Of a stretch of 62,000 bases of DNA, positions 10,795 to 44,526 are shown one piece after another. The notes under the pieces are model-generated. The model did no database searches and was not told where the DNA came from. It worked only from the letters and a program-made list of their open reading frames with translations. Every line of letters begins with the position of its first letter. Position 1 is the first letter of the stretch. The translations under genes and the position numbers were made by a program. Source of the stretch: Tubulanus polymorphus (taxonomy: Eukaryota; Nemertea; Palaeonemertea; Tubulaniformes; Tubulanidae); assembly GCF_964204645.1 (NCBI RefSeq), contig NC_134033.1, positions 1,547,631-1,609,630 on the forward strand. The letters run 5' to 3'.

Positions 10795-11062
10795 TCAGCA
10801 CTTAGATAAACAGGCATACTCATGGTTCCCACAGAACGCAGAAATTGGGAAAAACTTTGGAATTTTGAAATGATAATTCCTAGTTTGGAAATATTTCCAA
10901 AAATAAATTTCGGAAATTTTCATAAAATCAAGGAAATATTTGGGTAATTCATTTATATTTTGTGTATTTACCAAGTGCAACTTTCGTCAGCGAATTCCCT
11001 TGAGAATCATCTGTAACTGGTTGATACAGATGATTCTCAAGGGAATTCGCTGACGAAAGTTG
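10795..11062. mobile_element. Dispersed repeat ending in a perfect 38-bp hairpin
   Basis: 10,815-10,990 is related to 38,333-38,530 ('ggttcccacagaac', 'gggaaaaactt'). At its right end 10,978-11,015 is the exact reverse complement of 11,025-11,062 with a 9-nt loop, whereas the copy at 38.5 kb lacks this snap-back. This is probably a non-autonomous element with a rearranged end. Confidence 0.6.
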
Positions 11063-11236: not shown

Positions 11237-11264
11237 AAATATGGCTCCAAAACGAAAGCAGATA
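11237..11264 (+). CDS. Exon 1, start codon
   Basis: After ttctag the exon reads AAAT then ATG, encoding MAPKRKQI, followed by donor GTAAGT. Eight codons, exits in phase 0. Upstream sequence back to about 11,130 may be a 5' intron or the promoter; which is not decidable here. Confidence 0.65.
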
Positions 11265-14200
11265 GTAAGTATTCATTTTTTTTTGTTCCAATAATATGTC
11301 TGTATCTACATTGATACCTAGTATACTTACCTGAGTAGATGTGCACTACGTCATCGATATTTTTGAGATAGTGCGCACTATTTCATTGATATATCGGAGC
11401 TAGATTTAAATCCCCCGCCCCCACTCCCCCTGGTGTTGGCGTTCATACCAACCCATCAAAGATACCGTCCACTCCACCTCACTAACCATCCAGGATACAG
11501 ATGGAATAATGAATTAAATGTGGAATTGAACCCGGGACCGGTTATCATTTGATGTTACAATCAATATTCAAAACTGAAACATTTTCTGGGGCCGGTTCCA
11601 TAGTCAGGGCTTTGACTTAAGATCAGTCTAAGACCAACTTGGTTCTATAGCCAATCTAACAACTTAAGACCAGTCTTAAGATTTAAGACCACTTTCGGAC
11701 TTAAGTCTCGATTGACGTGCAACCACCCCCAGATGCTTATTTTTCAAATAATTCTAATGAATGTGAATGTTATTGTTCTTTTCTAACAGCCAGAAGTCCT
11801 GGAGGAAATTCCGCCGCCAGTAAGTTTAGATTTGATGATATCATTTTATGTAAACCTGTTTTGTTTAACCTGGTCCTCTGAAGCCGGTTAGACTGGTATT
11901 ATGTTTAACCCGTGCTCAGTTAACTGAATTCACTTTTAATCAAGTAAACCCAGATTTATTAAAGTAAACATTGGTCTCCATAAAACTGGCGCTTAGATTC
12001 ATTGATCATTTAATGAATGATTTTTATAGATATGAATGTTAATTCTCTTTTCTAGATAACAGTAGAAGCGGAAATTCATTTTGTAAGTTTTCTATTAATC
12101 TCCTCGGTGGAATATGATATCTACCATTTTCGCTGAGAGTCATTGAAACTTCATAACTCTTTAAGCAAGTTGTAACTGATTTCGTCTTCAGTTTGTGCGC
12201 GCGCTCACTTACACATACGCTTATATTTGCGCATATAGTTCATAATTATCATCAAACTCGTAGTAATAACGATAATAGTAATGATAATAATTACAATTGT
12301 CATTTTTAAAGTGCAAATATCCCGATAAAAGGAATTATCAAACTGATTTATCACGTGGTGTTTTTGGTTTTCTCTCATTGTAACAAGTTTACTCTGATGA
12401 AATCTTTTTCCAGATATTAAACCTGTCTGGTATTCGTTTTAATAATGATCTCTGTTAAATGTGTGCTACTCAATATGAAATAACAACGCAATTAATTACT
12501 ATTCTTTCATCGCGACAGTTTGCTGCTGCAGCGGCAGCAGCAGCAGCAGCAGCAGCAACGACAACAGAAGTTTGAATTTTTCTGTTTCATGGACTCTATC
12601 GTTTGAATCAAACTGTAAAACAAACGAATACAGAAATATCAAAGTTACAGAGATCAGAGTTTTAATGCAAGAAATTAATGAATTCTCTTTTCTTTTATTG
12701 CAACAGAACAGACCAACAGCGACGAATACAGTAAGTTTGAATTTTTCTGTTTAATGGACTTTATATTGTTTAAATAAAACCCTAAAACAAACGAATACAG
12801 AAATATCAGGGTTTTTCCAAATACAGATATAAAACTTGTCTCTTGTTTTAATTATAATATGATCTCCTGTGTTTAATGTTTGCTACTGAATATGAAATAA
12901 TGTAAGAAATTCATGAATTCTCTTCTTTTTTTATTGCGACAGAATTCAGCGACGACGACGACGACGACAAAAACGACAGCACCAGAAGTAAGTGAGAAGT
13001 TTTCTGTATCATGGAATTTCTAGTCGTGTTTATTTCTTTCTTACAGACGATGATTTGTTTGTGATTTTCATCGTATATTTCATACCGGGAACAAAGTCAT
13101 GAAAATAATCCTGCTTTCAATGAAATAAATTCCCGTCACTTAGAATTATTTTATAATCAAGTTTTTTTTATATAATATTAGCGCACACAGTAAAATCTGG
13201 AAGCATTTGCTCACGGATATATGTGCATATATTTTATGTATCTCTTTTATTGATGTATTTTTATTTACTGTATTTAACGTGTGAACGTGAAATAACAAAA
13301 CTAAAATGAATTCTCTTTTTTTCTTTCATGTCATCAGCGTAAACAAACAGCAGCAAAGGCAGTAAGTATTAATTCTTCTGTTACCTTGAAACAACCGATT
13401 CTTATGAGTTTTTCAACAGAATTATCATCAAAATTACAGAATTTAATCGGAGTTCGATTCCCTTCATAACTTATCGTTTTTGACCTGAATGTGAATGTTA
13501 TTGTTCTTTTCTAACAGCCAGAAGTCCTGGAGGAAATTCCGCCGCCAGTAAGTTTAGATTTTATGATATCATTTTATGTAAACCTGTTTTGTTTAACCTG
13601 GTCCTCTGAAGCCGGTTAGACTGGTATTATGTTTAACCCGTGCTCAGTTAACTGAATTCACTTTTAATCAAGTTAACCCAGATTTATTAAAGTAAACATT
13701 GGTCTCCATAAAACTGGCGCTTAGATTCATTGATCATTTAATGAATGATTTTTATAGATATGAATGTTAATTCTCTTTTCTAGATAACAGTAGAAGCGGA
13801 AATTCATTTTGTAAGTTTTCTATTAATCTCCTCGGTGGAATATGATATCTACCATTTTCGCTGAGAGTCATTGAAACTTCATAACTCTTTAAGCAAGTTG
13901 TAACTGATTTCGTCTTCAGTTTGTGCGCGCGCTCACTTACACATACGCTTATATTTGCGCATATAGTTCATAATTATCATCAAACTCGTAGTAATAACGA
14001 TAATAGTAATGATAATAATTACAATTGTCATTTTTAAAGTGCAAATATCCCGATAAAAGGAATTATCAAACTGATTTATCGCGTGGTGTTTTTGGTTTTC
14101 TCTCATTGTAACAAGTTTACTCTGATGAAATCTTTTTCCAGATATTAAACCTGTCTGGTATTCGTTTTAATCATGATCTCTGTTAAATGTGTGCTACTCA

Positions 14201-17200
14201 ATATGAAATAACAACGCAATTAATTACTATTCTTTCATCGCGACAGTTTGCTGCTGCAGCAGCAGCAGCAGCAGCAGCAACAACGACAACAGAAGTTTGA
14301 ATTTTTCTGTTTCATGGACTCTATATCGTTTGAATCAAACTGTAAAACAAACGAATACAGAAATATCAAAGTTACAGAGATCAGAGTTTTAATGCAAGAA
14401 ATTAATGAATTCTCTTTTCTTTTATTGCAACAGAACAGACAAACAGCGACGAATACAGTAAGTTTGAATTTTTCTGTTTAATGGACTTTATATTGTTTAA
14501 ATAAAACCCTAAAACAAACGAATACAGAAATTTCAGGGTTTTTCCAAATACAGATATAAAACTTGTCTCTTGTTTTAATTATAATATGATCTCCTGTGTT
14601 TAATGTTTGCTACTGAATATGAAATAATGCAAGAAATTCATGAATTCTCTTCTTTTTTTATTGCGACAGAATTCAGCGACGACGACGACGACGACGACGA
14701 CAAAAACGACAGCACCAGAAGTAAGTGAGAAGTTTTCTGTATCATGGAATTTCTAGTCGTGTTTATTTCTTTCTGACAGACGATGATTTGTTTGTGATTT
14801 TCATCGTATATTTCATACCGGGAACAAAGTCATGAAAATAATCCTGCTTTTAATGAAATAAATTCCCGTCACTTAGAATTATTTTATAATCAAGTTTTTT
14901 TTTATATAATATTAGCGCACACAGTCAAATCTGGAAACATTTGCTCACGGATATATGTGCATATATTTTATGTATCTCTTTTATTGATGTATTAATATTT
15001 ACTGTATTTAACGTGTGAACGTGAAATAACAAAACTAAAATGAATTCTCTTTTTTTCTTTCATGTCATCAGCGTAAACAAACAGCAGCAAAGGCAGTAAG
15101 TAGAAATTCTTCTGTTACCTTGAAACAACCGATTCTTATGAGTTTTTCGTCAGAATTATCATCAAAGTTACAGAATTTAATCGGAGTTTGATTCCCTTCG
15201 TAACTTATCGTTTTTGACCTGAATGTGAATGTTATTGTTCTTTTCCAACAGCCAGAAGTCCTGGAGGAAATTCCGCCGCCAGTAAGTTTAGATTTTATGA
15301 TATCATTTTATGTAAACCTGTTTTGTTTAACCTGGTCCTCTGAAGCCGGTTAGACTGGTATTATGTTTAACCCGTGCTCAGTTAACTGAATTCACTTTTA
15401 ATCAAGTTAACCCAGATTTATTAAAGTAAACATTGGTCTCCATAAAACTGGCGCTTAGATTCATTGATCATTTAATGAATGATTTTTATAGATATGAATG
15501 TTAATTCTCTTTTCTAGATAACAGTAGAAGCGGAAATTCATTTTGTAAGTTTTCTATTAATCTCCTCGGTGGAATATGATGTCTACCATTTTCGCTGAGA
15601 GTCATTGAAACTTCATAACTCTTTAAGCAAGTTGTAACTGATTTCGTCTTCAGTTTGTGCGCGCGCTCACTTACACATACGCTTATATTTGCGCATGTAG
15701 TTCATAATTATCATCAAACTCGTAGTAATAACGATAATAGTAATGATAATAATTACAATTGTCATTTTTAAAGTGCAAATATCCCGATAAAAGGAATTAT
15801 CAAACTGATTTATCGTGTGGTGTTTTTGGTTTTCTCTCATTGTAACAAGTTTACTCTGATGAAATCTTTTTCCAGATGTTAAACCTGTCTGGTATTCGTT
15901 TTAATAATGATCTCTGTTAAATGTGTGCTACTCAATATGAAATAACAACGCAATTAATTACTATTCTTTCATCGCGACAGTTTGCTGCTGCAGCAGCAGC
16001 AGCAGCAGCAACAGCAGCAACGACAACAGAAGCTTGAATTTTTCTGTTTCATGGACTCTATATCGTTTGAATCAAACTGTAAAACAAACGAATACAGAAA
16101 TATCAAAGTTACAGAGATCAGAGTTTCAATGCAAGAAATTAATGAATTCTCTTTTCTTTTATTGCAACAGAACAGACAAACAGCGACTAATACAGTAAGT
16201 TTGAATTTTTCTGTTTAATGGACTTTATATTGTTTAAATAAAACCCTAAAACAAACGAATACAGAAATATCAGGGTTTTTCCAAATACAGATATAAAACT
16301 TGTCTCTTGTTTTAATTATAATATGATCTCCTGTGTTTAATGTTTGCTACTGAATATGAAATAATGCAAGAAATTCATGAATTCTCTTCTTTTTTTATTG
16401 CGACAGAATTCAGCGACGACGACGACGACGACAAAAACGACAGCACCAGAAGTAAGTGAGAAGTTTTCTGTATCATGGAATTTCTAGTCGTGTTTATTTC
16501 TTTCTGACAGACGATGATTTGTTTGTGATTTTCATCGTATATTTCATACCGGGAACAAAGTCATGAAAATAATCCTGCTTTCAATGAAATAAATGCCCGT
16601 CACTTAGAATTATTTTATAATCAAGTTTTTTTTATATAATATTAGCGCACACAGTAAAATCTGGAAACATTTGCTCACGGATATATGTGCATATATTTTA
16701 TGTATCTCTTTTATTGATGTATTTATATTTACTGTATTTAACGTGTGAACGTGAAATAACAAAACTAAAATGAATTCTCTTTTTTTCTTTCATGTCATCA
16801 GCGTAAACAAACAGCAGCAAAGGCAGTAAGTAGAAATTCTTCTGTTACCTTGAAACAACCGATTCTTATGAGTTTTTCGTCAGAATTATCATCAAAGTTA
16901 CAGAATTTAATCGGAGTTCGATTCCCTTCGTAACTTATCGTTTTTGACCTGAAAAAAGGCGGCTCTAAATCCAATTCGGTTACAGATATCAAACCTGTCT
17001 ATTTTTGGTTTATTTGTATTGGTCATCAAATTCAATTCTTGGCGCACATTTTTATGCCCATAAACTGGTGCTGATTTTCATAAGCGCAACGATTGAATAG
17101 ATTCCGACTCGTTTTTTTCTTTCCCCTGGTAGATTTTCTGCAAAACAAGATGATGTTTTCCATGGTCGATTTACCAATTCCTAGGCTTTGTATTAATGAA

Positions 17201-20200
17201 TTTTATTCTTTTACAGCATCACACTGGAACGAGGTCCACGTTGGCGTCCCCAGACATCGAAGTAAGTTTAGATGTATCCGTTCTGTTGGCTGGTTATCAA
17301 TTGTAATATGTTGAGACTTGAGATGAAAATGTGAGATGTGCGGGGAAGGCAAAACACAAAACGCCGAACAGCAAAATGTCGTGTCCGTTGAACATTTTAT
17401 TGTTTGTGGGCAAAACGTGTTCTGAAAAGTGTGTTTTCTGTTTTGGCGAAACAAATGTTATGCCGGGTGCGGCGGGCTTATGGCGAGTGAATAATTAGGG
17501 TATATGAGAAAAAAAAGCGGGAATATAAATGAAGAACATTCGTAACTCTTTGCCTGCCACGCCTATTTTTCAGGCAATGCTGCGTTTTGCCAGGATTTCC
17601 GTGTTTTTCAGAGATTCATAAAACAAAAACAAGAAGAGATATCTTCTCATCAAATTTGTTTATATCTTTGATCTGGTCTTGCATTTTCATGTAAAATAAG
17701 CGGCATTTCTTCTAAGAGTGATAAAATCTGTAGCGATAACCAGTGCAGAGGGAGTATTTTGCAGAATATATGCTCGTTCATGCGTGTTCAGCCCCCATTT
17801 CAATAGATGATGTCACTCGCACACTGTATAGAACAACTGATGAGTTTGTTTAGTAGTAAAAGGCATTAAACTAACTGGTGTTGTGCGATGAATTCGCCAT
17901 CTATCGTTAGAGTTAAGAACCAAGCCAACCATATCGGTACGGTTTTGAGTTAAGAATCAAGCCAACCGTATCGGTACGGTTTTGAGTTAAGAAACAAGCC
18001 AACCGTATCGGTACGGTTTTGAGTTAAGAATCAAGCCAACCGTATCGGTACAGTTTTGAGTTAAGAAACAAGCCAACCGTATCGGTACGGTTTTGAGTTA
18101 AGAAACAAGCCAACCGTATCGGTACGGGTTTGAGTTAAGAAACAAGCCAACCATTTTGCCAGTACGGTTTTGGCAGGAATGTGATGGGAGATAACGAACA
18201 TACGAGAACGTGTTTGGGTGGAAATGAATTAAGGAGTCACGTCGGATCAACCCTCCTCCCAGTATATATCATCCAAGGGCATAACTCTTTCAGCACTCAC
18301 GGGTGATTTGATAAAAAAAAACACTCAGAGTGCCCATCATTGTTAACATAAAAGTAGGAAAATCAATAGAAACTTTCGAGCTCCATAGAGTGAAAACTGT
18401 AAGAGATAGAGCTTAATGTTAATTGAAAGGTTTCTAGGGTATCACTGACCCTTAGAAAAGATTGGTAACAATTTTTTGAAAAATGATCTAATTTGCACGA
18501 ATTATAGCTCTTTTTAAGAGCCTCAAAACGCTAAGCGCCACACATGGCATTATAAGTGGATTCGTTGTTTAAGAGACCAGAGAAAAACATTCGACTAAGA
18601 AACTCTGTCGTCACAAAGGTTTGAACCTATAAACCCTGGATTGATGAGACCAGTGACCGGCGGCTTAGTCCACTTGGCCACTGCGCCTCTCCAATTAATT
18701 ATAGCTCAGCGACCTATTTATTTGCTAACTCCTTAAATTTCAGGTATAGGATAAACAACCCAAGGGCTTAACGACAATTTATTGAAATGTCGTTTTTGAG
18801 ATGCTCTCACGATTCAATCTTTTGATGCAATTTTTTGGTAATTCGACTGTATTATTTAACGGGAGGGAGTGTTAATAGCGAAGCGAATATCGCAACTTTT
18901 TTGATGCCGTAAAAACCGGAATTACAACGATGTTCATATACATTCATACCTGTGCGTTATTTAAAACAGGTTCTCATAGGCGTCCCCAGGAATTTTCATA
19001 CGGGGTTCGAAATAAGCATCAATCCAGCATCCAAGCACAATGTCTGGTGTTTGGGGGGCCTCCCCCAAAAAACTTTTTTTTAAATTTGAGGCTTTAGAGA
19101 CGTTTTCCAGGCTCTAAATGAATCACTTAGAGTTAAAGGACTTAAGTCAAATTGGCAAGAAAAATCTTGAACATTGATTACATGTTAACTTGAGAAGTTA
19201 GCTATCTTGAAAAGGGTCCGCTACCCCTGCACCCCCCTCGGGGACGCCTATGGTTTTGTGCGAGTCAATGTGCGCTACGTCATCAATATTGGAGCAATTC
19301 AAAATAACAATTACAATTGTGAATGTTCGCTTATCCATTTTGTAATATAACGCTTGCCAGGGGTCAGGTATCACTCCCGAACTCGCCACCAGCCCCCTGG
19401 CCTCATGAAGCGTGATTTCATTACTGGCGCTGTTGCGCGTGACGTCATATATCGATTTGCGAAATACTTCCTTGTTCGGTAAAACGTTCGCTGATTGGTC
19501 TATGTAACGGGAAAACCAACATAAGTCAACTGACGGTTTGTTACAAGGGCTGTGATTGGTACGACCGGATTCTGGTCGGCTAGTAACGACTCCAATGACT
19601 CGTGAGGTCAAGGGGTTCGGGGAACAGCTTTAGCGTAGTGGGTTCGAATCCCTTGACAGGTGAAGATTTCAATATTGAAGCATTTCAAAATAACAATTAC
19701 AATTGTGAATGTTCGCTTATCCATTTTGTAATATACAGTGTTGCCACTTCTCCGGATTTCTCCGGAATTCCGGATTTAAAAAAAAATCCAATTTCATTTC
19801 CGGATTTTCGGGAGAAGTCAAATAACCACAAAAGAAAACATCGCGAAAAAAATAAAATCAATTCGGGATTCGACCCTAAACATCAAAACGTGACGGCTCC
19901 GTAGAGGGTTCGAAAAAGCCGTATTGTGCTGCCACGTAGTGGCAACAACCCCGCGCGCAGTACATGATTAAACCAAGATGACGCAACGATCGAAATCGAC
20001 TGACGCTTCGTTTGTTTTTTGGCTCTCTGGTTAATATATGAGGTGTATTTGCCGGAGCCAATTGCTATTTGAAAAAAAGATCTATAAGCGGTAATGAAAG
20101 TGAGGCCTATAACGCGTATTGCGCCAGAATGCATCTCCTGGCGTTCTAATTTAAAAAATTTTTGGGGGAGGGCCTCAGACCCCCGACTTATTTTCCGGAT

Positions 20201-23200: not shown

Positions 23201-26200
23201 ATTTCCAGACACAGATATTAAACCTGCCCAGTTTTTGTGTCTTCTGTGTTTAACGTTTGCTGCTGAATATGAAATATAAAAAAAAAAACTTATTGAATTT
23301 TCTTTCTTTTATTGCAACAGAAACCAACAGCTCCAGCAGTGGCAGCGGCCATTCCTGCACGAGTAAGTTCAATTTTATAATTAAGCGTCATTCGTTTCCC
23401 ATGTATACCCGCGTAGATGATCCTGTCTTAACATCAACTTTAATCCATTAGCACTCAGGAATTGCACTTAACTTAATGTAAGATATTTATGCTAATGACA
23501 TCAAAATCATTTTTCAGATACAGATATCTATATAAACCTGTCCAGTTTTTGTCTACTGTGTTTATTAACGTTTGCTGCTGTATATGAAATATAAAAAAAA
23601 AAAACTTACTGAATTTTCTTTCTTTTATTGCAACAGAAACCAACAGCAGCAGCACCGAAGGAAGTAAGTCAGCATTTTTCTGTATCATGGATTTTCTGTC
23701 GTGTTCATTTCTATCTGACAGCCAATGTATTTCATACCGGGAACAAAGTCATAAAAATTCTCCTGTTCGTTTTATTAAATAACGATACAGAATCAAAACA
23801 ATATAACGAGGCATCCGTCGCTTAGAACTCATTTATTACGTATATTGATACCTACGTGTGCTACTGAACATAAAATAACAAAACTAAAATTAATTCTCTT
23901 TTTTTCTTTCATGGCATCAGTGCAAACAAACAACAATAACAACAACGAAAGAAGTAAGTTTTGGCCATGTTTTTAGTTTTCGCTCATCGCTGACATTACT
24001 GATATCTTTCCTCGCAGTCTTAAATCGGCTCCACTCAATTTCTCTCATGAAATGCTTTCCATGTTCGAACTACACGTGATCATGAACTTGAAAATGAAAA
24101 ATGATTAAATCTAAATGTTGCTCGTTTATTTTATAGGTCACCAGAAAGCGACGCCGATCCGTCGACGAGGTCAGTTTGAATTCTATCGAATCGTTCTCCC
24201 GTTATTACTTTCAATCTGTCTTTTCGTCCATAGATAGGATCTCACAATCGCCAGTGGTATAGGCATTGTTCAGCAATTCAAGGGTGCTAATGTCCTAGAA
24301 AACCTGGCAATCTCATTGAATCAGAAAGATTGGGGAATTTGATAGATTTTTACCAAAATCCTGGAAAACACAGGGGATTTATAAATTCTTAATACTACAA
24401 AATCAGGAAAAAAAGTGGTCTACCGTCGGTCGGTCGGTCGGTCGGTCGGTCGGTCGGTCGGTCGGTCGGTCGGTCGGTCGGTCGGTCGGTCGGTCGGTGA
24501 TGTTCACGTCTCTGAACCCACAGCTTATGGTTATTCATGAAGACTTGACCATTATTTCCTGTTTTAAGTCGTGTAGATTATTATCAATGTGTATCCAAAT
24601 TCTGAATGTTGATTTCAACTTTTTTAAAAATATTTTACAGCAACCTGTAAGCCCGCCGAAGATTCCGCGTGAGGAGGTAAGTTTCAATTTCATTAAATCA
24701 TTTTCGATATCGATGTTAAATATTGATAACCTTAGCCCTGTTTCATAGACTGTATATCAATAATACCCTGGAGGTATTTCTTCAACCTGAGCCCGATTTT
24801 GTAAACCGGATATCAATGTTACCCAGAGTTGCCAACTGTTCCTGATTTTCGGTATTTGTTACTCTTTTATGACAAGAAATACTGATTTGTTTTGTTCGAT
24901 GCATATGAAAAGTATGAAAGATCTAACTGAGGGTCTTACTGTTGATTACTGATTGATTTGAACATTTATTTTCATATTACAATTTGTTACTGATAGCACT
25001 TTTCAGAGGTTGGCAGCCCTGTTGGTTGCCTATAGGTAAATCTTCAACATAGGTGACAACTTCATAATGAAAACCTTGGTAATAACTGAAAAATTTCGAA
25101 ATGATCCCAGCTGGTATTATTTTTTCCCAACATCTATGAAACTTGGCTCTGGTGAACGCCTAGCCTCACTGGCAAGCAATTGTGATACTATCGTGACCAT
25201 ATGTCACTTGTGATCAGTAAGTGTCATTTACCAAAAACATACGTACGTTTTATCGTAATAAATTTTTTGTATTCTTTTTTATAGGACATCAATTTATTCG
25301 ACGACCTTTGGGTAAATATCCTTTTGATCGCCTACTCGTTCTCAGTGAATTTGGAGCCATCCCTTTCATTAGTGGGTGGCTCCATATATACTCGCTTTTA
25401 GGGTTAGCTAGAATTTTTCATGATATTTCATGTTATTTTGATTACTAGAATGATGATTTCCCAGAGCCGCCGCCGCCGGAGCCCGAGGCTCCTACCATTA
25501 TCGTAAGTTGTAAAAGATAATTATTTTCGTAGTTCACCAGATTATTATAATCTGATATTGATTTTCCTGCTGAAATATCCATGTTCTAAGAGATCCCATA
25601 GCATATCTCCACCAAGGTCAAACTTGGCTAAAGCTACGACCAATTTTGCTCGTAGGCTAAAGGCACCTAGTTTTTGCTAGCTTATTTGTTGTTGGAAAAC
25701 ATAAACACTGGTAATTGTGACCGATCTGTTTGCTGCCGCTATACGGTATCATGGGTTCAATTATAAAATGTCATTACTTAGGGGCAGTTCCGTGGGGGGC
25801 TGGTGAATTTGGCTATATTCCTTAAAGATATTTTTTGCCTGACCGCTGCAGCTGCCGCAGTTTAGGGGTCCTAACCAATAAGAATTTTGAAATATGTTCT
25901 AATTTCCTTGTATCTGGGACATTCTGTTGGATCGAGTTACTTTAAAAAAAAAAATGTTATTCTGACTATATTCCGGAATACAATGGAATCTAGTTTGGAT
26001 CCGCTACTGATTAAGCTATATAGAGTAGTATCTTCGGTCCTAAATTAATCACAGCTGAAGCCAGTTATATCTAAAGAGTGTTTGAAAGTAGTCGCACTCG
26101 GTCACAGTTTGTATCGATGCGAATATTCATCTTACCGAGTTCATATTATTCGTAAAATTGGTATTGATAATAGCGTGAAGCAATGTTTTTAAGTGAAACT

Positions 26201-29200
26201 AAGAATGTTTAAAAGTTGCGGCTCGGTCACAGTTTTGTATCGATGTGAATATTCTTCAGACCGAGTTAGTAGAATATTGAAATCATGTCACGCAGCATCC
26301 ATCGGTTCAATTATCCTCAAAATAGCCTCTAAATCGAGGGTCAACTAAGAATTTAGATCATGGAATCTTTGATCCGTGGTATAGTTATTCAAAACTTGAT
26401 TTCAAAATTTTTTTTCTTTACATTTCTAGGAATCGGAAATCGTGCGTATTGTGCAAATTGACGTAAGTTTACAATAGACGATTTCAGTTACACATGTTGA
26501 CACCCAGTCACTTTATAAATACCACCTGCCTGCCATCTACTGACAAAAACTTGAACTTTATTCCATAATGTACACTATACCGTTGTGGTTCTCATAAATC
26601 CGATCATTAGTAACAACCTATAACGTAATAATAACTATTTTTGATGGTTCACCAGATGAGGCTTTTTCTTAAATAGCTTGGTTTACGGGAACCGCCTCCC
26701 GAAATTTGAAGAAAAGTCAAACAAAAGTAGAATTTTTTTTTACTCCCATCCGTGGAACAAATTCAGTGGAAAACGAGCAAAAAAGTTTTTCACCTTCGCC
26801 GAATGAGAATCCCGGCTTGAATGATGAAAAAATTGAAAACTGCGCGTTTATTCTTTTTTTGATCACATTTGTGTGCAGAATTCGAACTTTCCAAGGATCA
26901 TTGTTTTGGACATATGTATATTGCCCTATCGATCGTTCCCTCTTCCTTCAAAAACTGTGTTTATCGCGCTGAGCGAGTTCTTTTTTTTTAAAATTTTCCG
27001 AAATGATATTTCAATAGTCTACCCTGTCAACCAAGCTATTAAAAAAATGCGAGATTTGAGATAATTTATTCTGATTTTCATAAATGCTAAATTGAGCTCT
27101 TGTTTTTCTTTTTATGTAGAGAAATGAATTCCACACGTGCGTGAATGTGCCGGTAAATATTGTGAACATTTCTATTGAATTTACAGTTGAACACAAACGA
27201 CTGCAGATGAAATATGTCTGAATTTTTGTTGACGTTGTTAAACTAAAGTTGATTTTTTATTTTATAGAAGAGGAAGCTCGAGGTACCGGCATCGGTGAGT
27301 TTGAATTTCATCAAATCATTTTACAGTCCGTTCGTCTGTCCGCCTGTCTCTCCGTCTGTCCGCCTGTCTCTCCGTCTGTCCGCCTGTCTCTCCGTCTGTC
27401 CGCCTGTCTCTCCGTCTGTCCGCCTGTCTCTCCGTCTGTCCGTCTGCCGACGGGATCTTGTGAAAGTTTAAGCTTACGACAACTATGATTTGTGATTGCG
27501 ACGAGAGTTTGTCGATGCGAAAAAAAACCACTTTCCAAGTGGCTTGAACATCTATTTTGGGCATGGAAAAAAAGGCACAAGATTTTCGCGATGGTAGTAC
27601 GTGCCTCTTGTGATTGTGGAGAGTTTGTTGAAGCCCTTTTTGCAAGTGGTGTTGTCGTTTCTGCACCTGCAGTTCATGGTTATTCATTTCCATTTTTTAG
27701 TTGTGTAGATTATCATTTTCGTGGCTCACCAAAGATTATTAAGATAATCTGAAATTGAGATTTCCTTCAGAAATATGTTTGAAAATTCTGGATGTTGATT
27801 TCAACTTGTTTTTATTTTATAGGACCCCGTTAGCCCTAAACGGGCACGCGTCAGACCAATCAAAGTAAGTTTGATTTGAGTCAAATCATTTTAAGTGAAG
27901 CTAATTTCAAATAAGTTTATTGATAATCTGGGCAGGGTTTTATAGACCACATCATTTTCTCCTAGGGGTAAATCCTCAACCGTGGCCCGATTTCATAGAC
28001 CGGGTTTCAATGTTGCCCCTAGCGGTAAATCCTCAACATAGGTGACAACCACCATTGTAACAATGATAAACTATGGTAATAACTGACAAATTTTTAAATG
28101 TTTCCATTTCGAACCACTTTTCAAGTGATTTTCGCGTCTCTGCACCCACAGTTCATGGTTATTCATGAAGACTTGACCATTATTTCCTGTTTTAAGTCCT
28201 GTAGATTATTATCATTGTGGTTCACTAATGATTATGGTGATATTTTATTGTTTTCAAAATCTGCATCGGAAAAAGAATTAAAATAGTGTAGAATTCTTCT
28301 GCTTTGGATCTCGTGGCACCAAAAAATCGAAACCAAAAAAAAAGTAAAAATACCTAATTCTGGGGCGGCGGGACAGGGAGAGATCTAGAAATTTATGACA
28401 ATCGGCTTGATGACCATCGCACGGAACTAACTGAATATCATTGGCTGGAAAACTAGGATCCAGCATCGGTAACTCTTTACTAGATCATAACTTCAAACTG
28501 TGGAACTGGGTCCAGAACTGCGGAGCCAGGTTCTGTAACTGTGGGACTGGGTCCAGAACTGCGGAGCCAGGTTCTGTAACTGTGGGACTGGGTCCTGAAC
28601 TGTGGAACCAAGTTTTATTATATTAAGTTGAAATGAATCATTTTCATGTTTTTATAACCAATGGAAATATCGTTTTTTTACTTTTTAGACTGAAACACCT
28701 GCGACGCCGCCGCCGCCGCCGCAAGCTGATGTAAGTTTGAACTATAAGTGAAAATAATTATAATGCATCAAATACACTGAATGTGTTGATCATTACTGAC
28801 ACGTCAATGAACAGGAAGACATACAGAATCCCTGAATCTCTCTGGTCCTACCGAACTATTCACATATAGAATCCCTGAATCTCTCTGGTCCTACCGAGCT
28901 ATTCGCATATAGAATCCCTGAATCTCTGGTCCTACCGAACTATTCACATATAGAATCCCTGAATCTCTCTGGTCCTACCGAGCTATTCGCATATAGAATC
29001 CCTGAATCTCTGGTCCTACCGAGCTATTCACATATAGAATCCCTGAACCTCGCTGGTCCTACCGAGCTATTCACATGTAAAATCCCTGAACCTCGCAGGT
29101 CCTACCGAGCTATTCACATATAGAATCCCTGAATCTCTCTGGTCCTACCGAGCTAATTCTGATACCGAACTCTCCAAACAGTAAGAAATCATTTGATGTT

Positions 29201-31771
29201 TCGATGATTTAATCAATGTTGATCGTTTTGTTTTTTCCAGAGAGACGAGATACCGCAACTACGCCGCTCCCCGCGGCTCCGACGCCGTAGAGTAAGTTTG
29301 AATTGTTTACTGAGTTATTGGTATTCCAGACCTGATAACGACTTTGAGAGTAGTGCCTCCATTTTAAGAGCTTTGAAATATCAAAATACTTTCAAGATCA
29401 CAATGATTTCTAGTTGTGGTTATTTCTTATTCAACTACCATTTTTGATATTAGAGCCCTTGCGCTGTCATATATTCAGGTGAAAACTACTCAAATTAGAG
29501 ATATCAAATTGTCAGGTATTTTTAACCGTAATGATATGATCCAGTGCTCACTATTAATACAATAAGAGATGCGCGAAAAAATATCGATGCTCTAATTTGA
29601 CGACTTCTTGTCGCGCAGACGACGTCTCTGAAATTCACTTTCTGTCCCATTAGATTGTCTCACATACCTAAGCGGTGCCATCTGAAGGGATAGCTGGCGT
29701 GCCAGTTCCCTACTGTTCAAATTTCATGAAAGCGATGATGAAAGGATTATCCAATGAACCGGAACTGCTATACATAAACGGCGAATGTACTATAAAGAGA
29801 AATCAAGAAAAACTTTGAAATTGTGATTTCTTGGTTTGTTTGGAAACTTTGCGCTGCATTAGTTGAGCTCTTGAAATGCTCTTGTTTGCAGGCTCTATTT
29901 CAGCTTTTGATTTCATATAGGGAATTGGCCCCATTATCTCTCTAATTACGATTCGTGTTATCGAAACGCTAGTAAAAACTGCATAAATTTTGACAAATTT
30001 TTGTTGTTGTTTTCTTAAACCTTAACATCATGATTGTTATTATATTATAGGCAGAAAATGCAGCTGCCGCCCCCGCCGCCCCCGTCGATGCGACGGAAAA
30101 TGGTAAGTCTACACATATTCATGATCCTATTTAGATATGTCCGTTTGTAGCCAGACATTTTTAGCAGAGCTGCCCAAACTGTTACTGATTTTCGGTATTT
30201 GTTACTATTTTATGACAAGAAATACTGAATTTGTCTCTGATTTGAACAGAAATATGAAAGATGTTACTGAGCGCCTTACTGTTGATAACTGATGATTAAT
30301 TTAGTTAACTGTAACTCACAACTGTGGAACTGGGTCCTGGATCCCGAGTTCAGAGTTAACTTTAACTCGTAACTGTAGAACTGGATCCTGAGTTCAGAGT
30401 TAACTTTAACTCGTAACTGTAGCACTGGATTCTGTGTTCAGAGTTAAATCTAACTCATCTGTGGAACTGGATCCTGAGTTCAGAATTAACTCTCGCAAAT
30501 GTAGAACTAGATTCTGAGATCAGAGTTAACTCATTTGTGGAAATGGATCCAGCACGTTAAAATGCCCAAAATCATGTCACTCCTGATGGAGTATGGCGGC
30601 AGTATAACGGACTTTGACTGTATTGTCCACGTTGTAAAACTCCTATTGATCGTCCATGATTTAATGAAATACTAATAATTTTTCTCATTTATTTATTTTA
30701 CAGTCATCGAAGAGATAAGGCGGAATATCGCCGCGGATCCGCGGTATCTACTTAATTTTTTGACGCGATGTAAGTACAACTTTTTGCATTTATACCTCTC
30801 TCCTCTCTCTTTCCACTGATCACATCATTTTTCATCCCCCCCCCCGCTCGTGTTAAGTATCCTCAACGTACATTGAATAAGGTACTGGCTGCGTACAGAT
30901 GGCGCAAAAATACACTCGTTGATACGCGATGAAATTAGTTTATTTTCGAACTCGATTTTCGCTTAGAAAATTCAAATATAATCAAACGAATTTTTGTTCG
31001 AGCAACTTTCGCGTTGAGGAGAGAATCCCACAATGATAATAAAAAGTCCAAAAATTAAACTTCGAGATAGTAGTTTATTTCAACGTTTCGACTATATCGA
31101 AGTTTCATTTTCGGACTTTTTATTATCATTGTGAGATTCTCTCCTCATCGCGTCAACACGGATATAGTGTTCTACCAATCGTGAACTTTCGCGTATTGAT
31201 AAAGCGATGAGTCGGCTACAGTTCAATCGGGAAGTGTCGACGAAATTGAAGCACGGTAATTGAGGAGTAACCACTAGCTGATCCTCGCTTGCCACAGTAA
31301 CGCAGCCACTGCCTCATCAAGCCCCGGGTATTATTGACGGTACATCCTAGAAATAATTGAAATCGAAAAACGAGATCATTGTTCCCTTTCTGTTTACAAC
31401 AGAATTCTGTATAACAAAAGCCTATTTATTTTCGTGTGGCGTCAACCATTTTCAGACACATCGTGAAATATCAGTAACTAACGATACACCGCGCCGTGGT
31501 GTAGACGCACTGTAGTGCTATTCCCGTTATTCAACACACTTGGGTGGAATTTTTCAAAATTTTCAAATTATCTCCAGCACTATAGGGTATTGATCAGTCA
31601 GCACTGAAAGGGTTAATAAGATAAAAACCAACTTTATTTACAAATTAAAAGAATTCTAAAATCGAGAATTTATTTATGGAAACAATCTAAAACATAAGAA
31701 CACGACGTTTCGATCTCACCCTAGAGATCATCGTCAGGTGTGAGATATTGACTGAAAACGGATATATATAT

Positions 31772-31841
<70 letters not shown>

Positions 31842-33829
31842 CAGGTTAATTGAGTGATTTGGTGAGTAAGTAATTAGTGTTTGGCAAGGCATGAAGTAAT
31901 ATACTCCATATACCATATGTCGCTCATTGTTTTAAACACATACCGCATCAAATTTGGTTTAAATACGACCAGTGAAACCGCGCGGTCTGAATAAACCATC
32001 GTTTTTGCATCCATTTTACGCTGTTAATTGAAGCATTGCCAAAAAAGTCTTCTTGAACTGATTTGAATCGGAGAAAATTGACTGCATTTTATGAACTAGA
32101 TCAATTTTAACAAGTTTCCATGCCTACCATTTAGAATTATTTTCAAATCATCATGAATCATGGTTTGCGGTTATGGCAGGGGTTCACCTGATGGTTAAGT
32201 GATGGTTCGCTGATGGTATGACACCTATTTATTTGTTCATGTGACTGAACAATGCAATGATACGATGTTTAGTTACTTCTATGCTGTACTGTAGTAACCC
32301 TGTCCCGACGACCCTAAACTCTCAACCAGCCCATCAATGTCACTCATCGAGACTGATATTGTATTCTTTCCGCATCCCACATTCTGCTGCATGATGATGT
32401 CACAAATTATTGGCAACCAATCACACTTCAAGTGGAAAGTCAGCCATTTTGTATTAATGAGATTACTAGCTACACTGGGTTCACTGTAAATCTACAAGGG
32501 CTGAGCCAGGATTTTTGGAAGGTTTACTGAAGGGCACATGAGCACTCGTGAAGGGATGAAAGGGGTCTTAAGTGTTTCTCCCAAGAAAATTTTGAAATTT
32601 TGTTGCACGAGGCTATTCGATAGCCATCATGAGAGAATACTTTATCTTTCTTTATAAAATGGAAAAAGAAATTCCTAAAATATCTTGAGGGCACCTGAAG
32701 ATATTAAAGGCGGGGGACTGGATCCGCCCTTGATATATTAATTGTTTCTCCTGATGGTTAATGTATTTCTTTCTATTTTATATTTTACAGTGGAACCAAT
32801 ATTAATTGAGACGGTGGAGGATGGTCCGGAGGACGTGAAAGAGGCCATAGACCTCTTTCACTTGAACCTTGGTCCTGTCTTGGATGACCAGCTGGCAGAC
32901 CCCGTTCCAGCTGCTGCCTCCCCGGATAGGCGCCCTGGGCAGCGGACCCTCCGGCAGCCGCACCCTTTTGCACAGAGGTGGTCCCGTCGCGTGGACGGGC
33001 GGCTGTGGGAGGGGGAGTTACGGGAGGTAAGCATCATCTCAACATTAACTGTTTTTTTTTATATTTCTCTCGGTTTTGATTTCGAATGTCAATTTCTCTC
33101 ACACGAACAGTTTTTATGAATCACTTATAATATCTTTTCTTTAATAATACTTTCATTTTCAGCGAGCCATCGTCATTTTTTTTTTTTGCTTTATTTTCTA
33201 ACCCTTTAGAATATTGTTTCCCAGATCGCGACGATTTATCTCTTTGTTTATATGTAATCAATTGTTCCATTATTTCAGCTCGGTTACTGATCCGAAAATT
33301 TTCTGTAAAAAATCACTTTTCAACCGATCATTTAGTAAATGAATGTTTTCTTTTTTTGCAGACGGGCACGCGCACCGCTCGGCATCGAAGACGACGCCGT
33401 CCGGCGGTTCGTCGCGGTGGTGTGGCGCCTCCCGAGGGGGAGCGACGCGGTGGCGGAGGGGAGGAGATCGGCGTCGTGGTAGTTCCGGAGGTGGTGGAGG
33501 CGGTGCCGGTGCCGGAGCCGGAGCCGGAACTGGAACCGGTGTTTGAACCGGTCCCGGAGCCGGAGCCGGAGCCGGAACCGGTAGAAGAGGAGATGGTCGT
33601 GGAGGTTGAGGAGGTAAGAGGGGTTCCTCCTGCCCCCGTGGAGCCGTTGGCCGCTGCCCCGGTTTCGGCGCTGGACAGAGTTCTGTCCAGCGACCGATGC
33701 CGCGCCGAAGTGCGGGTGGTGGCTCGCGGTTCCGTGGGACCGTGGGAGGAGCTTCTATCTTCGTGTAGATCAAAGGCTCTTTTACATGATTTAAAATCGG
33801 TCTTGTTTAGGCGTGGGTACAGGGAGTAG
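11241..33829 (+). CDS. Micro-exon gene, about 43 exons, unrecognised proline/glutamate- and arginine-rich protein
   Basis: The model joins exons at 11241-11264, 11790-11819, 12056-12082, 12519-12569, 12707-12730, 12943-12987, 13338-13361 (last six repeated twice more), 17217-17261, 20685-20765, 21133-21252 and so on to 33362-33829, each listed separately. Exons 1-39 all begin and end in phase 0 and nearly all have GTAAGT-type donors and pyrimidine-rich acceptors. The reading stays open for 777 codons, or 727 without the three poly-Ala exons with poor donors. Features: MAPKRKQ start, Ala/Thr/Pro codon-repeat exons, basic clusters (RKRRR, KRK, PKRAR, RLRRRR, RHRRRRR) suggesting a nuclear protein, and a Pro-Glu-Val repeat near the C terminus. 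No signal peptide or membrane segment. An acceptor (ttctag) just before the ATG suggests an upstream non-coding exon. The family is unknown to me; function is not inferred. Confidence 0.75.
11790..11819 (+). CDS. Exon 2 (module copy 1)
   Basis: Ten codons PEVLEEIPPP between ttctaacag and GTAAGT, phase 0-0. Identical in copies 2 and 3. Confidence 0.75.
12056..12082 (+). CDS. Exon 3 (module copy 1)
   Basis: Nine codons ITVEAEIHF between tttctag and GTAAGT, phase 0-0. Confidence 0.72.
12519..12569 (+). CDS. Exon 4 (module copy 1), poly-Ala, weak donor
   Basis: Phe, twelve Ala codons, TTTE. The acceptor gcgacag is good but the donor is GTTTGA, as if four bases of GTAAGTTTGA were lost. Reading through gives an immediate TGA. 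The exon is probably skipped, or used rarely. Confidence 0.4.
12707..12730 (+). CDS. Exon 5 (module copy 1)
   Basis: Eight codons NRPTATNT between attgcaacag and GTAAGT, phase 0-0. Copies 2 and 3 have Gln in place of Pro. Confidence 0.7.
12943..12987 (+). CDS. Exon 6 (module copy 1), poly-Thr
   Basis: Fifteen codons NSATTTTTTKTTAPE, with five ACG in a row, between attgcgacag and GTAAGT. Phase 0-0. Confidence 0.72.
13338..13361 (+). CDS. Exon 7 (module copy 1)
   Basis: Eight codons RKQTAAKA between gtcatcag and GTAAGT, phase 0-0. Its upstream intron end matches that of exon 29, showing common origin. Confidence 0.72.
13518..13547 (+). CDS. Exon 8 (module copy 2, PEVLEEIPPP)
   Basis: Exact copy of exon 2 with the same splice signals. 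Confidence 0.75.
13784..13810 (+). CDS. Exon 9 (module copy 2, ITVEAEIHF)
   Basis: Exact copy of exon 3 with the same splice signals. Confidence 0.72.
14247..14294 (+). CDS. Exon 10 (module copy 2), poly-Ala, weak donor
   Basis: Phe, ten Ala, TTTTE, followed by GTTTGA instead of GTAAGT. An alternative acceptor (ctgctgcag, ending 14,259) would open a 66-codon poly-Gln exon running through the following intron to 14,457 in phase 0. Confidence 0.4.
14434..14457 (+). CDS. Exon 11 (module copy 2, NRQTATNT)
   Basis: Eight codons, phase 0-0, GTAAGT donor. It could instead be the 3' end of a longer exon beginning at 14,260. Confidence 0.7.
14670..14720 (+). CDS. Exon 12 (module copy 2), poly-Thr
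   Basis: Seventeen codons. It differs from exon 6 only by two extra ACG codons, a whole-codon change. Donor GTAAGT. Confidence 0.72.
15072..15095 (+). CDS. Exon 13 (module copy 2, RKQTAAKA)
   Basis: Exact copy of exon 7, phase 0-0. Confidence 0.72.
15252..15281 (+). CDS. Exon 14 (module copy 3, PEVLEEIPPP)
   Basis: Exact copy of exon 2; acceptor ttttccaacag. Confidence 0.75.
15518..15544 (+). CDS. Exon 15 (module copy 3, ITVEAEIHF)
   Basis: Exact copy of exon 3, phase 0-0. Confidence 0.72.
15981..16031 (+). CDS. Exon 16 (module copy 3), poly-Ala, donor destroyed
   Basis: Phe, nine Ala, Thr, two Ala, TTTE. The donor position reads GCTTGA, so even the GT is gone. As in copy 2, an alternative acceptor would open a poly-Gln exon that runs through to 16,194. 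Confidence 0.3.
16171..16194 (+). CDS. Exon 17 (module copy 3, NRQTATNT)
   Basis: Eight codons, phase 0-0. One silent change (ACT for ACG) relative to copy 2. Confidence 0.7.
16407..16451 (+). CDS. Exon 18 (module copy 3), poly-Thr
   Basis: Fifteen codons, same protein as exon 6, GTAAGT donor. Confidence 0.72.
16802..16825 (+). CDS. Exon 19 (module copy 3, RKQTAAKA)
   Basis: Exact copy of exon 7. The repeat ends about 130 bp downstream. Confidence 0.72.
17217..17261 (+). CDS. Exon 20
   Basis: Fifteen codons HHTGTRSTLASPDIE between ttcttttacag and GTAAGT, phase 0-0. A 3.4-kb intron follows, filled with repeats. Confidence 0.7.
17909..18170. repeat. 37-bp tandem repeat, seven copies
   Basis: Each unit has GAGTTAAGAA, CAAGCCAACC and GTATCGGTACGGTTTT. 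The AACCGTA / TACGGTT pair makes each unit a small hairpin. It lies in intron 20. Confidence 0.9.
18618..18689 (-). repeat. tRNA-derived repeat (SINE head or tRNA pseudogene)
   Basis: On the minus strand GGCGCAGTGGCCAAGTGGAC gives an A box and GGTTCAAACC gives a B box about 50 nt later. The acceptor stem does not close, so it is not a working tRNA. Confidence 0.55.
19270..19735. repeat. Duplicated 65-bp block with promoter-like middle
   Basis: The block at 19,280-19,345 recurs at 19,668-19,735 ('aataacaattacaattgtga'). Between them are a CRE (TGACGTCA near 19,440), two ATTGG boxes and a tRNA-type B box (GGGTTCGAATCCC near 19,640). A minus-strand frame (19,198-19,611) across it has no recognisable domain. 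Confidence 0.45.
19736..20228. mobile_element. hAT-like MITE
   Basis: CAGTGTTGCCACTT on the left and AAGTGGCAACTCTG on the right are inverted and resemble hAT termini. Flanks share AATATA (19,730-19,735 and 20,229-20,234). The duplicated block near 19,345 shows the same site without the insertion. No transposase frame. Confidence 0.65.
20685..20765 (+). CDS. Exon 21
   Basis: Twenty-seven codons starting EIETVFELKLGTS and ending LTRKHP, between tatatttcag and GTAATG. Phase 0-0. It looks like structured protein rather than low complexity. Confidence 0.72.
21133..21252 (+). CDS. Exon 22, forty codons
   Basis: Reads QVMVDLPRVHAIVVVRG, then PKVAVDNCYEYAHELRDRL, ending VAQE. Acceptor ctatttacag, donor GTAAGA, phase 0-0. 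The alternating hydrophobic stretch followed by a likely helix suggests a small folded unit. I do not recognise the family. Confidence 0.75.
22008..22034 (+). CDS. Exon 23 (TLKEKRKME)
   Basis: Nine basic/acidic codons between ttaatag and GTAAGT, phase 0-0. Confidence 0.7.
22135..22161 (+). CDS. Exon 24 (RERKKKALE)
   Basis: Nine codons between ctttccag and GTAAGT, phase 0-0. Resembles exon 23 in charge pattern. Confidence 0.7.
22391..22444 (+). CDS. Exon 25, poly-Ala
   Basis: Eighteen codons QMKAAAAAAAAAKTAAAF. Acceptor tatagcag allows loss of the first Gln (NAGNAG). The downstream intron resembles the one after exon 6, showing module homology. Confidence 0.7.
22979..23026 (+). CDS. Exon 26 (KPPTTTAAAAAAVPAR)
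   Basis: Sixteen codons. Tandem acceptor tgcagcag could add one Gln. Donor GTAAGT. Related to exons 27 and 28 including flanking introns. Confidence 0.7.
23321..23362 (+). CDS. Exon 27 (KPTAPAVAAAIPAR)
   Basis: Fourteen codons between attgcaacag and GTAAGT, phase 0-0. Diverged duplicate of exon 26. Confidence 0.72.
23637..23663 (+). CDS. Exon 28 (KPTAAAPKE)
   Basis: Nine codons between attgcaacag and GTAAGT. Its intron upstream matches that of exon 26; its intron downstream matches that of exon 6. Confidence 0.7.
23921..23953 (+). CDS. Exon 29 (CKQTTITTTKE)
   Basis: Eleven codons between ggcatcag and GTAAGT, phase 0-0. A relative of exon 7 (RKQTAAKA). Confidence 0.7.
24137..24169 (+). CDS. 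Exon 30 (VTRKRRRSVDE), basic cluster
   Basis: Eleven codons between ttttatag and GTCAGT. RKRRR is a candidate nuclear localisation signal. Confidence 0.7.
24425..24498. repeat. (CGGT)n microsatellite
   Basis: About 18 uninterrupted tetranucleotide copies in the intron after exon 30. Confidence 0.98.
24641..24676 (+). CDS. Exon 31 (QPVSPPKIPREE)
   Basis: Twelve codons between attttacag and GTAAGT, phase 0-0. Confidence 0.72.
25285..25311 (+). CDS. Exon 32 (DINLFDDLW)
   Basis: Nine codons between ttttttatag and GTAAAT, phase 0-0. An acidic-hydrophobic patch of the sort used as short binding motifs. Confidence 0.65.
25449..25502 (+). CDS. Exon 33 (NDDFPEPPPPEPEAPTII)
   Basis: Eighteen Pro/Glu-rich codons between gattactag and GTAAGT, phase 0-0. 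Confidence 0.72.
26430..26462 (+). CDS. Exon 34 (ESEIVRIVQID)
   Basis: Eleven codons between catttctag and GTAAGT. The pattern resembles SUMO-interacting or short beta-strand motifs, but that is only a guess. Confidence 0.7.
27120..27152 (+). CDS. Exon 35 (RNEFHTCVNVP)
   Basis: Eleven codons between tttatgtag and GTAAAT, phase 0-0. Confidence 0.65.
27268..27294 (+). CDS. Exon 36 (KRKLEVPAS)
   Basis: Nine codons between attttatag and GTGAGT. KRK start is basic. A similar 12-nt fragment (GATCCAGCATCG before GTAACT) at 28,457-28,468 may be a decayed relative. Confidence 0.68.
27325..27445. repeat. 20-bp tandem repeat
   Basis: About six copies of a unit built from GTCTGTCCGCCTGTCTCTCC, in the intron after exon 36. 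Confidence 0.95.
27823..27864 (+). CDS. Exon 37 (DPVSPKRARVRPIK)
   Basis: Fourteen codons between attttatag and GTAAGT. PKRAR.R resembles a monopartite nuclear signal. A paralogous, partly changed version (SKRARVGAVK) lies inverted at 39,877-39,910. Confidence 0.75.
28496..28615. repeat. Tandem copies of a dispersed motif
   Basis: Two and a half to three copies of a 46-bp unit containing 'aactgtgggactgggtcc' and 'agaactgcggagccaggttc'. The related 30,305-30,545 stretch has about five looser copies. Confidence 0.7.
28689..28730 (+). CDS. Exon 38 (TETPATPPPPPQAD)
   Basis: Fourteen codons, with five CCG prolines, between actttttag and GTAAGT, phase 0-0. Confidence 0.72.
28820..29157. repeat. 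43-bp tandem repeat
   Basis: Seven to eight copies of 'atagaatccctgaatctc' plus 'tggtcctaccgagctattc' in the intron before exon 39. An inverted array of the same unit lies at 39,112-39,472. Confidence 0.9.
29241..29291 (+). CDS. Exon 39 (RDEIPQLRRSPRLRRRR)
   Basis: Seventeen codons between tttttccag and GTAAGT, phase 0-0. Strongly basic. A minus-strand duplicate at 38,979-39,029 has kept its frame and splice sites. Confidence 0.75.
30051..30102 (+). CDS. Exon 40
   Basis: AENAAAAPAAPVDATEN plus one base, between atattatag and GTAAGT. This is the first exon to leave in phase 1, marking the shift from the micro-exon part to the C-terminal part. Confidence 0.7.
30704..30769 (+). CDS. Exon 41
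   Basis: Phase 1-1, encoding VIEEIRRNIAADPRYLLNFL then TR. It looks like an amphipathic helix followed by a hydrophobic turn. Acceptor attttacag, donor GTAAGT. Confidence 0.72.
31010..31152. repeat. Long inverted repeat (45-bp arms) in intron 41
   Basis: 31,010-31,054 pairs with 31,108-31,152 with few mismatches ('gataataaaaagtcc' / 'ggactttttattatc'). The loop holds a second, smaller inverted pair around 'aaacttcgaga' and 'tatcgaagttt'. Confidence 0.8.
31436..31612 (-). mobile_element. Truncated piggyBac-like MITE, empty-site copy
   Basis: Inverted relative of the MITE at 8993. The right end GCACTGAAAGGG is followed by TTAA (31,613-31,616). It has a single TA where the other copy carries the nested element. 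Confidence 0.65.
31701..31738 (-). ncRNA. Hammerhead-like ribozyme core, probably from a Penelope-like element
   Basis: On the minus strand CTGACGA is followed by T, a perfect 6-bp stem GATCTC / GAGATC with a 6-nt loop, then GAAAC. The two boxes around a helix II match the hammerhead core known from Penelope-like elements and retrozymes. The extra T and the very short helix III make activity doubtful. Confidence 0.4.
31762..31841. repeat. (TA)n microsatellite
   Basis: About 80 bp of nearly pure TA, interrupted once by CGG, in intron 41. Confidence 0.98.
31928..32165. mobile_element. Half copy of the fold-back MITE
   Basis: Matches the left arm and middle of the element at 9895-10,320 ('aaatacgaccagtgaaac', 'tccatgcctacc'). 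Confidence 0.55.
32791..33026 (+). CDS. Exon 42, large exon
   Basis: Enters in phase 1 and leaves in phase 0 at GTAAGC. Encodes LEPILIETVEDGPEDVKEAI, DLFHLNLGPVLDDQLADP, a Pro-Arg linker and WSRRVDGRLWEGELRE. The first half looks like a small helical domain. Part of this exon is duplicated inverted at 39,911-40,053. Confidence 0.78.
33362..33829 (+). CDS. Exon 43, terminal exon
   Basis: 155 codons and a TAG after cttttttttgcag-type acceptor. Order: arginine-rich start (TARHRRRRRPAVRRG), Gly-rich linker, Val/Glu/Pro repeat (PVPEPEPELEPVFEP), acidic EEEMVVEVEE, and a globular-looking tail with ALDRVLSSDRCRAEV and LLHDLKSVLFRRGYRE. A consensus donor (GAG then GTAAGA at 33,614) sits in frame inside it and might be used for another 3' end. 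Confidence 0.78.
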   Translation, partial: TGTRTARHRRRRRPAVRRGGVAPPEGERRGGGGEEIGVVVVPEVVEAVPVPEPEPELEPVFEPVPEPEPEPEPVEEEMVVEVEEVRGVPPAPVEPLAAAPVSALDRVLSSDRCRAEVRVVARGSVGPWEELLSSCRSKALLHDLKSVLFRRGYRE

Positions 33830-33916
33830 ATGAATCGTAAATGATCCAGTAACGAGGTAGGCTTGTTTGTTCACTGCTTCACTGGGTCATTTACGATTCA
33901 ACTGCTTCCTGTATCC
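33815..33916 (+). promoter_or_regulatory. 36-bp stem-loop spanning the stop codon
   Basis: 33,815-33,850 and 33,881-33,916 are inverted repeats with a 30-nt loop. As RNA: 31 Watson-Crick pairs, four G-U pairs and one A-A mismatch. The TAG at 33,827-33,829 is inside the 5' arm. Confidence 0.65.
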
Positions 33917-38655: not shown

Positions 38656-38978
38656 ACCAGCATGAAAATGTTTTTTGCTTCTCACTCTCAAGTTTTGTCA
38701 GTATTTGAGATAATTTAGGATTTCTTTTGATACATAATCTTCTGATTATCGGTCGAACAGGAAAGTGTAATTGATAACGGATAGAGCGAGATAGTTTTAC
38801 AACTCCCCCTCCCACTGCCAAGGTTCAGATGAAAGAGATCGAAAAATAACCACAACTAGAAATCATTGTGATCTTGAAAGTATTTTGATATTTCAAAGCT
38901 CTTAAAAATGGAGGCACTACTCTCAAAGTCGTTATCAGATCTGGAATACCACTAACTCAGTAAATAATTCAAACTTAC

Positions 38979-39029
38979 TCGACGGCATTGTAGCCGCGGG
39001 GAGCGGCGCAGTTGCGGTATCTCGTCTCT
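38979..39029 (-). CDS. Inverted copy of exon 39 (RDEIPQLRRSPRLQCRR)
   Basis: Seventeen codons with intact acceptor (tttttccag) and GTAAGT donor. It differs from exon 39 only near its end (QCRR for RRRR). Whether it is transcribed is unknown. Confidence 0.45.
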
Positions 39030-39111
39030 CTGGAAAAAACAAAACGATCAACATTGATTAAATCATCGAAACATTAAATGATTTCTTACTGTTTGGAGAA
39101 TTCGGTATCAG

Positions 39112-44290: not shown

Positions 44291-44396
44291 TATAAAAATG
44301 CCGAGATATTCGTTTCATTAATTGGTAGTAATTGTTAATGAGTTTACAGTACGATGCAGTTATTCATGTTAAAAGTTCAGGCATTAGCCTTTCTCT

Positions 44397-44456: not shown

Positions 44457-44526
44457 GTAAGTATGTTTACAACATACTCACTACAACTAAACCAAGCTTT
44501 TATCTTGGATGTAAAACTAAGTGTGT

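Follow-up and report, generated by a model that had tools for sequence, protein, structure and literature searches.

We found that the 62,000-nucleotide stretch of Tubulanus polymorphus DNA analyzed here (the window; C9:1547631-1609630) carries, on its forward strand, a gene of 43 exons and 778 codons (11241-33829, ATG to stop) in which most exons are very small and both begin and end in phase 0. With a probability of roughly 0.7, the gene truly encodes a protein and belongs to an amplified family, apparently restricted to one lineage, in which a symmetrical micro-exon arm of variable length is joined to a tail with a conserved domain. The N-terminal two thirds of the presumably transcribed gene would encode a low-complexity arm, probably disordered and nuclear, that grew mainly through successive tandem duplications of small symmetrical exons and their introns. 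The C-terminal third (exons 40-43) would end in a small conserved domain common to a wider family. Because the micro-exons are in phase 0 on both sides, they can be gained, lost or skipped without a frame change, such that arm length and charge vary from copy to copy and perhaps, by splicing, from transcript to transcript. Such a protein may serve on chromatin or RNA as a linker whose length varies.

The 43 exons were placed in 11237-33829, part of them from a splice scan and part by eye. Starting at the ATG (11241), the concatenated sequence has 2337 nt, or 778 codons plus the stop, uninterrupted by any internal stop codon. This agrees with the preliminary description of the locus, which had claimed about 43 exons, mostly of 8-18 codons, and 39 successive phase-0 exons: exons 1-39 all enter and leave in phase 0, and 37 of these 39 are 24-54 nt long, the remaining two being 81 and 120 nt. 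Exon 40 exits in phase 1, exon 41 is phase 1-1, and exon 42 is phase 1-0. The phase-0-0 exons of 24-54 nt make up 1314 of the 2337 coding nt (56%).

Exon 1 (11237-11264) reads AAAT and then MAPKRKQI, with the acceptor ttttctag directly 5' of it. An acceptor directly 5' of the start region is found in five of five copies of this gene, and the gene of a second family type (the C6 type, described below) has one 3 nt before its ATG. With an acceptor in this position, exon 1 is likely preceded by either a non-coding exon or a trans-spliced leader. By eye, a perfect inverted repeat with 38-nt arms and a 9-nt loop was also seen at 10978-11062, about 180 bp 5' of the start codon.

Exons 2-19 lie in three successive forward-strand repeat blocks. 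Block 1 (11758-13485) contains exons 2-7 (11790-11819, 12056-12082, 12519-12569, 12707-12730, 12943-12987, and 13338-13361). Block 2 (13486-15219) contains exons 8-13 (13518-13547, 13784-13810, 14247-14294, 14434-14457, 14670-14720, and 15072-15095). Block 3 (15220-16953) contains exons 14-19 (15252-15281, 15518-15544, 15981-16031, 16171-16194, 16407-16451, and 16802-16825). Exon 20 (17217-17261) is nucleotide-identical in all five copies and is followed by the two longer exons, 21 (20685-20765; 81 nt) and 22 (21133-21252; 120 nt). Exons 23-29 (22008-23953) are at 22008-22034, 22135-22161, 22391-22444, 22976-23026, 23321-23362, 23637-23663, and 23921-23953, and exons 30-39 (24137-29291) are at 24137-24169, 24641-24676, 25285-25311, 25449-25502, 26430-26462, 27120-27152, 27268-27294, 27823-27864, 28689-28730, and 29241-29291. 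Taken together, exons 21-39 have a pI of 10.0. The tail consists of exon 40 (30051-30102), exon 41 (30704-30769), exon 42 (32791-33026), whose end is common to the C6-type family, and exon 43 (33362-33829), which holds an acidic stretch (PEPE) as well as the roughly 50-aa conserved domain at the C terminus.

The claims of strong splice sites in nearly all exons and of introns of 100 bp to 3 kb also hold. All 42 acceptors are AG, 41 of 42 donors start with GT and 32 of 42 are GTAAGT, and intron lengths are 100-3423 bp with a median of 350. The exceptions are the alanine exons 4, 10, and 16. Exons 4 and 10 are followed by a weak GTTTGA and exon 16 by GCTTGA, which is no GT donor and is counted against the gene reading; these three exons may therefore be skipped in splicing. 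For a comparison with chance, we counted strong AG...GT pairs 21-130 nt apart at one fixed threshold of generic splice scoring. The forward strand of 11200-33850 has 33 such pairs; the length is a multiple of three in 29, and 25 have an open phase-0 frame. On the opposite strand there are two, neither of them open in phase 0. Fifty first-order Markov sequences have a mean of 3.12 pairs, with a mean of 0.22 and a maximum of 1 open in phase 0. Because any subset of exons 2-39 preserves the frame, the very large set of variants through alternative splicing that had been proposed is possible.

The array has grown by duplication. Exons 2-7 form a 1.73-kb block that is present in three copies at 97-99% identity, which gives 18 exons in total, and the introns of exons 24-29 are homologous to the introns of this block. 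By similarity of flanking introns, 24 of the 39 exons examined (exons 2-40) fall into four families, namely, exons 2-19 and 24-29. The uniform phase of these exons can thus be explained by the duplication of symmetrical exon-intron units. The earlier interpretation, a host of phase-0 micro-exons attached to a C-terminal part of conventional structure, is supported by the comparison of copies below; it lacked the repeat-block origin of 18 exons, the shared intron ancestry of later exons, and the membership of an amplified family.

The genome compared comprises 267.8 Mb in 77 contigs. Exon 42 has 61 matches across it, and matches to exons 21, 22, 33, 41, and 42 occur together in nine places: two on C9 (one of them the window), six on C11, and one on C8. 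Partial copies were found at C11:3.01 Mb and C8:13.95-14.00 Mb. Four other copies were aligned with the window over the whole gene and a fifth, on C8, over exons 21-43 only. From about 4.4-4.8 kb to 38 kb, the window matches the four copies in long aligned blocks, mostly at 93-99% identity. Every exon recurs in the five copies except exon 16, which is absent from C11c, and nearly all splice sites are kept. The acceptor of C11c exon 26 is AA (the next AG is one codon in), which also counts against the gene reading. C11a and C11d have additional exon-27-like exons, one of which begins a codon earlier. The C8 copy is open over exons 21-43 and is diverged by 3.2% in introns and 5.0% in exons; it has one extra exon-26-like stretch, and the acceptor of its exon 25 was not confirmed in the alignment. 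The copies have 30, 30, 31, 30, and 33 phase-0 exons above threshold. The exon array is therefore still changing in number between copies. With exons 16 and 27 left out, all 88 pairwise exon length differences among five copies are multiples of three vs 72 of the 478 found in introns (counting indels of at most 60 nt), where the pairwise counts are non-independent and many exon indels sit in trinucleotide repeats, which change by three anyway.

Coding constraint was assessed among the five copies, again without exons 16 and 27. Micro-exons without repeats have a pN/pS of 0.29 (98/7689 vs 108/2427 sites), and exons 21-39 have a pN/pS of 0.27 between the window and the C8 copy. The pN/pS is 1.05 in repeat-rich micro-exons and 0.91 in exons 40-43 (0.67 against the C8 copy). 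Recent constraint is therefore visible in the non-repeat micro-exons and not in the tail. An older constraint on the tail is indicated by the sequence of its C-terminal domain, which is 40-44% identical between window-type and C6-type proteins. The little or no recent purifying selection in repeat-rich micro-exons and exons 40-43 is counted against the gene reading. It also bears on a somewhat improbable explanation, namely, that the family is a by-product of amplification caused by the instability of the distal chromosome regions in which it lies, and that the gene is a weakly functional orphan of recent origin whose micro-exons are tolerated rather than used for diversity. Consistent with this, no full copy or near-identical tail is more than about 3.1 Mb from an end of its contig, pN/pS is near 1 in the repeats and the C-terminal part of recent copies, and no credible relative was found in a set of 5.8 billion proteins. 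However, the frame, the splice sites, and the non-repeat micro-exons are under constraint. This explanation overlaps with the preferred one, that of an amplified family with a variable micro-exon arm, and both take the gene as real.

Among copies, exons are more diverged than introns (1.92% vs 1.24%), mostly because the exons are CpG-rich; this, too, is counted against the gene reading. We considered selection on RNA as a cause, and exon CpG density mostly explains the difference instead. In the micro-exons, 7 of 59 fourfold CpG sites are variable vs 11.8% in introns, which is no excess, and 6 of 99 fourfold non-CpG sites are variable vs 2.0% in introns, which is a modest excess (p 0.015). In exons 40-43 (32791-33829 region), none of 154 fourfold sites is variable among the five copies; this is below the prediction from the intron rate for CpG sites (0/50, p 0.005) but not clearly below it for other sites (0/104, p 0.28).

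Separately, the differences between copies cluster inside single micro-exons, at 29241-29291, 24641-24676, 21133-21252, and 27823-27864, to a degree reached by 0 of 20000 permutations. In exon 39, 11 of 51 sites are variable (nine of them synonymous), and in exon 31, 9 of 36 (about half synonymous). Apart from a gap after exon 39, the 12-nt flanks are unchanged. The pattern would be explained by gene conversion confined to exons, with an old paralogue or a cDNA as donor.

A hairpin surrounds the stop codon (33815-33916, forward strand), with 36-nt arms that are 86% complementary, a 30-nt loop, and a z of -10.8. Downstream, at 38844-40053 on the reverse strand, pieces of the same gene recur in inverted orientation, namely, a portion of exon 42, exon 39 and its flanks, and the introns after exons 37 and 38. 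These features raise the unlikely alternative of an RNA-silencing or drive conflict in which the family is one side: the hairpins and inverted antisense fragments of its amplified copies would yield small RNAs that target the mRNA of the family itself, much as in flies, where sperm drivers are suppressed by hairpin RNAs. The alternative is compatible with a real gene and competes over what the family does. In its favor, the window-type hairpin is kept in all eight loci L001-L008 (including that of the window, with one base changed in two) and in the C8 copy, and the C6-type copies C6x, L039, L040, L041, and L048 have a shorter stop-codon hairpin of unrelated sequence, which is weaker in L042 and L046. 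An opposite-strand match to exon 42 lies 6.7-7.6 kb downstream in all eight C9 and C11 copies (in the window, within the patch of inverted fragments), the C6 array contains many degenerate inverted copies, and the clustering of differences inside single exons also fits. On the other hand, L038, a scrambled C8 piece, has lost the hairpin, and at the stop codon of the degenerate C6-type copies L043, L044, L045, and L047 none was found. Furthermore, foldback duplication also produces inverted fragments and hairpins, and the fourfold-site excess in micro-exons is modest after allowing for CpG. Joining silencing to the variable arm in one system, where distal amplification and in-frame changes of micro-exon number diversify a nuclear protein and small RNAs from hairpins and inverted pieces police the copies, seems quite unlikely.

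Some family members have junctions without introns. In three diverged C8 units (locus L037), exons 21 and 22 are joined with one frame across the junction. One of these fused units is open from its acceptor, and two are frameshifted upstream of the junction; the latter two are counted against the gene reading. Other than these exon 21-22 units, we sought processed copies of the window-type gene and found none, which is also counted against the gene reading. When exons 30-41 were joined and searched against the genome, the matches were confined to the places of exons 33 and 41. Among 42 junction probes in the fetched loci, no intronless window-type junction was found at a threshold too strict to recover even the diverged 21/22 units, and control probes of unrelated exon pairs gave one match among at most 60. 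For the C6 type, one inverted partial copy has exons 1, 2, and 3 joined with both introns absent and the start of the next intron still there, and a second has exons 1 and 2 joined. At L049, inverted partial copies of the C6 array lack single introns yet retain others, as if they had passed through an RNA intermediate.

The C6-type protein starts with MPKANKKTRG, and some exons of its gene are short and in phase 0. Its 51 C-terminal residues have 87 matches in the genome, of which 34 are full length at 98-100% identity (18 on C6, 10 on C3, and six on C8); those on C6 are spaced mostly 30-36 kb apart or about twice that. A profile search, as proposed in the preliminary description, found no Pfam family up to E 1 for the complete protein, the piece from exons 21-25, or the window tail. 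Membership in DUF6508 was considered and rejected: the C6-type tail scored 16.6 bits (E 0.007, Pfam), below the cut-off of 23.6, and of five tails compared with DUF6508 three gave weak matches (best E 0.012) and the window tail none. Three sequence searches of the PDB returned nothing credible (best E 0.18, 0.054, and none). In the 5.8-billion protein set, residues 520-778 gave one chance match (E 0.89) among the 7998 candidates sharing most words that were scored, and the tail alignment as query gave no match in this set. The tail model has four predicted helices at a mean pLDDT of 67, with no credible fold match, viral folds included. The exon 21-22 unit model (pLDDT 47.8) is too poor for use. 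The appearance of the sequence had suggested cohesin-like, histone-like, and viral origins, none of which was kept. These results also bear on whether a large mobile element or endogenous virus carries the gene, which we regard as very improbable. Dispersed copies of a segment of >30 kb, hairpins, and inverted repeats would fit such a carrier. Against it stand the 42 host-type introns, the tail model with no credible viral fold match, and the window ORFs of at least 90 codons, among which visual inspection revealed no frame for a transposase, polymerase, or capsid.

The closest known system appears to be that of schistosome micro-exon genes (MEGs). In MEGs, very small symmetrical exons hold most of the coding region (PMC4350168); these genes form a family of several members, contain 10-20 very short exons, and encode an N-terminal signal peptide on which secretion depends (PMC10526429). 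The window gene shares with MEGs more than half of its coding region in very small symmetrical exons and a family of several genes, but unlike MEGs, it has 39 phase-0 exons, stretches that are basic and of nuclear type, and a C-terminal part that is long and conventional. Its start (MAPKRKQIPEV) is, by inspection, hydrophilic, not a signal peptide. We take the gene to work like a MEG without being one, and its protein to look nuclear rather than secreted. In the portions available to us of the micro-exon gene literature (schistosomes, tapeworm, other parasites, plants, and annotation software), no family of this kind is described.

Collagens, elastin, and the PEVK region of titin have repeat arms with many symmetrical exons and known mechanical roles. 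The window gene resembles them in having a flexible low-complexity arm derived from in-frame exon duplication, but here the family is an amplified orphan, and the exon number differs between copies. Small in-frame exons are also shared with neuronal micro-exons, which are single switch exons inside conserved genes. The locus is a case in which interchangeable phase-0 micro-exons make up most of a gene whose protein is probably nuclear. Its many copies in one genome provide a natural experiment on the growth, shrinkage, and frame keeping of an exon array, and for such arrays, the diversification of proteins by gene copy vs by splicing becomes a directly testable question.

Elsewhere in the window, the region downstream of the gene (42246-57020) contains long minisatellite arrays with units of 40, 29, 72, and 26 bp and an AT array, and outside it, an 18S-like end was seen at two places on C12.
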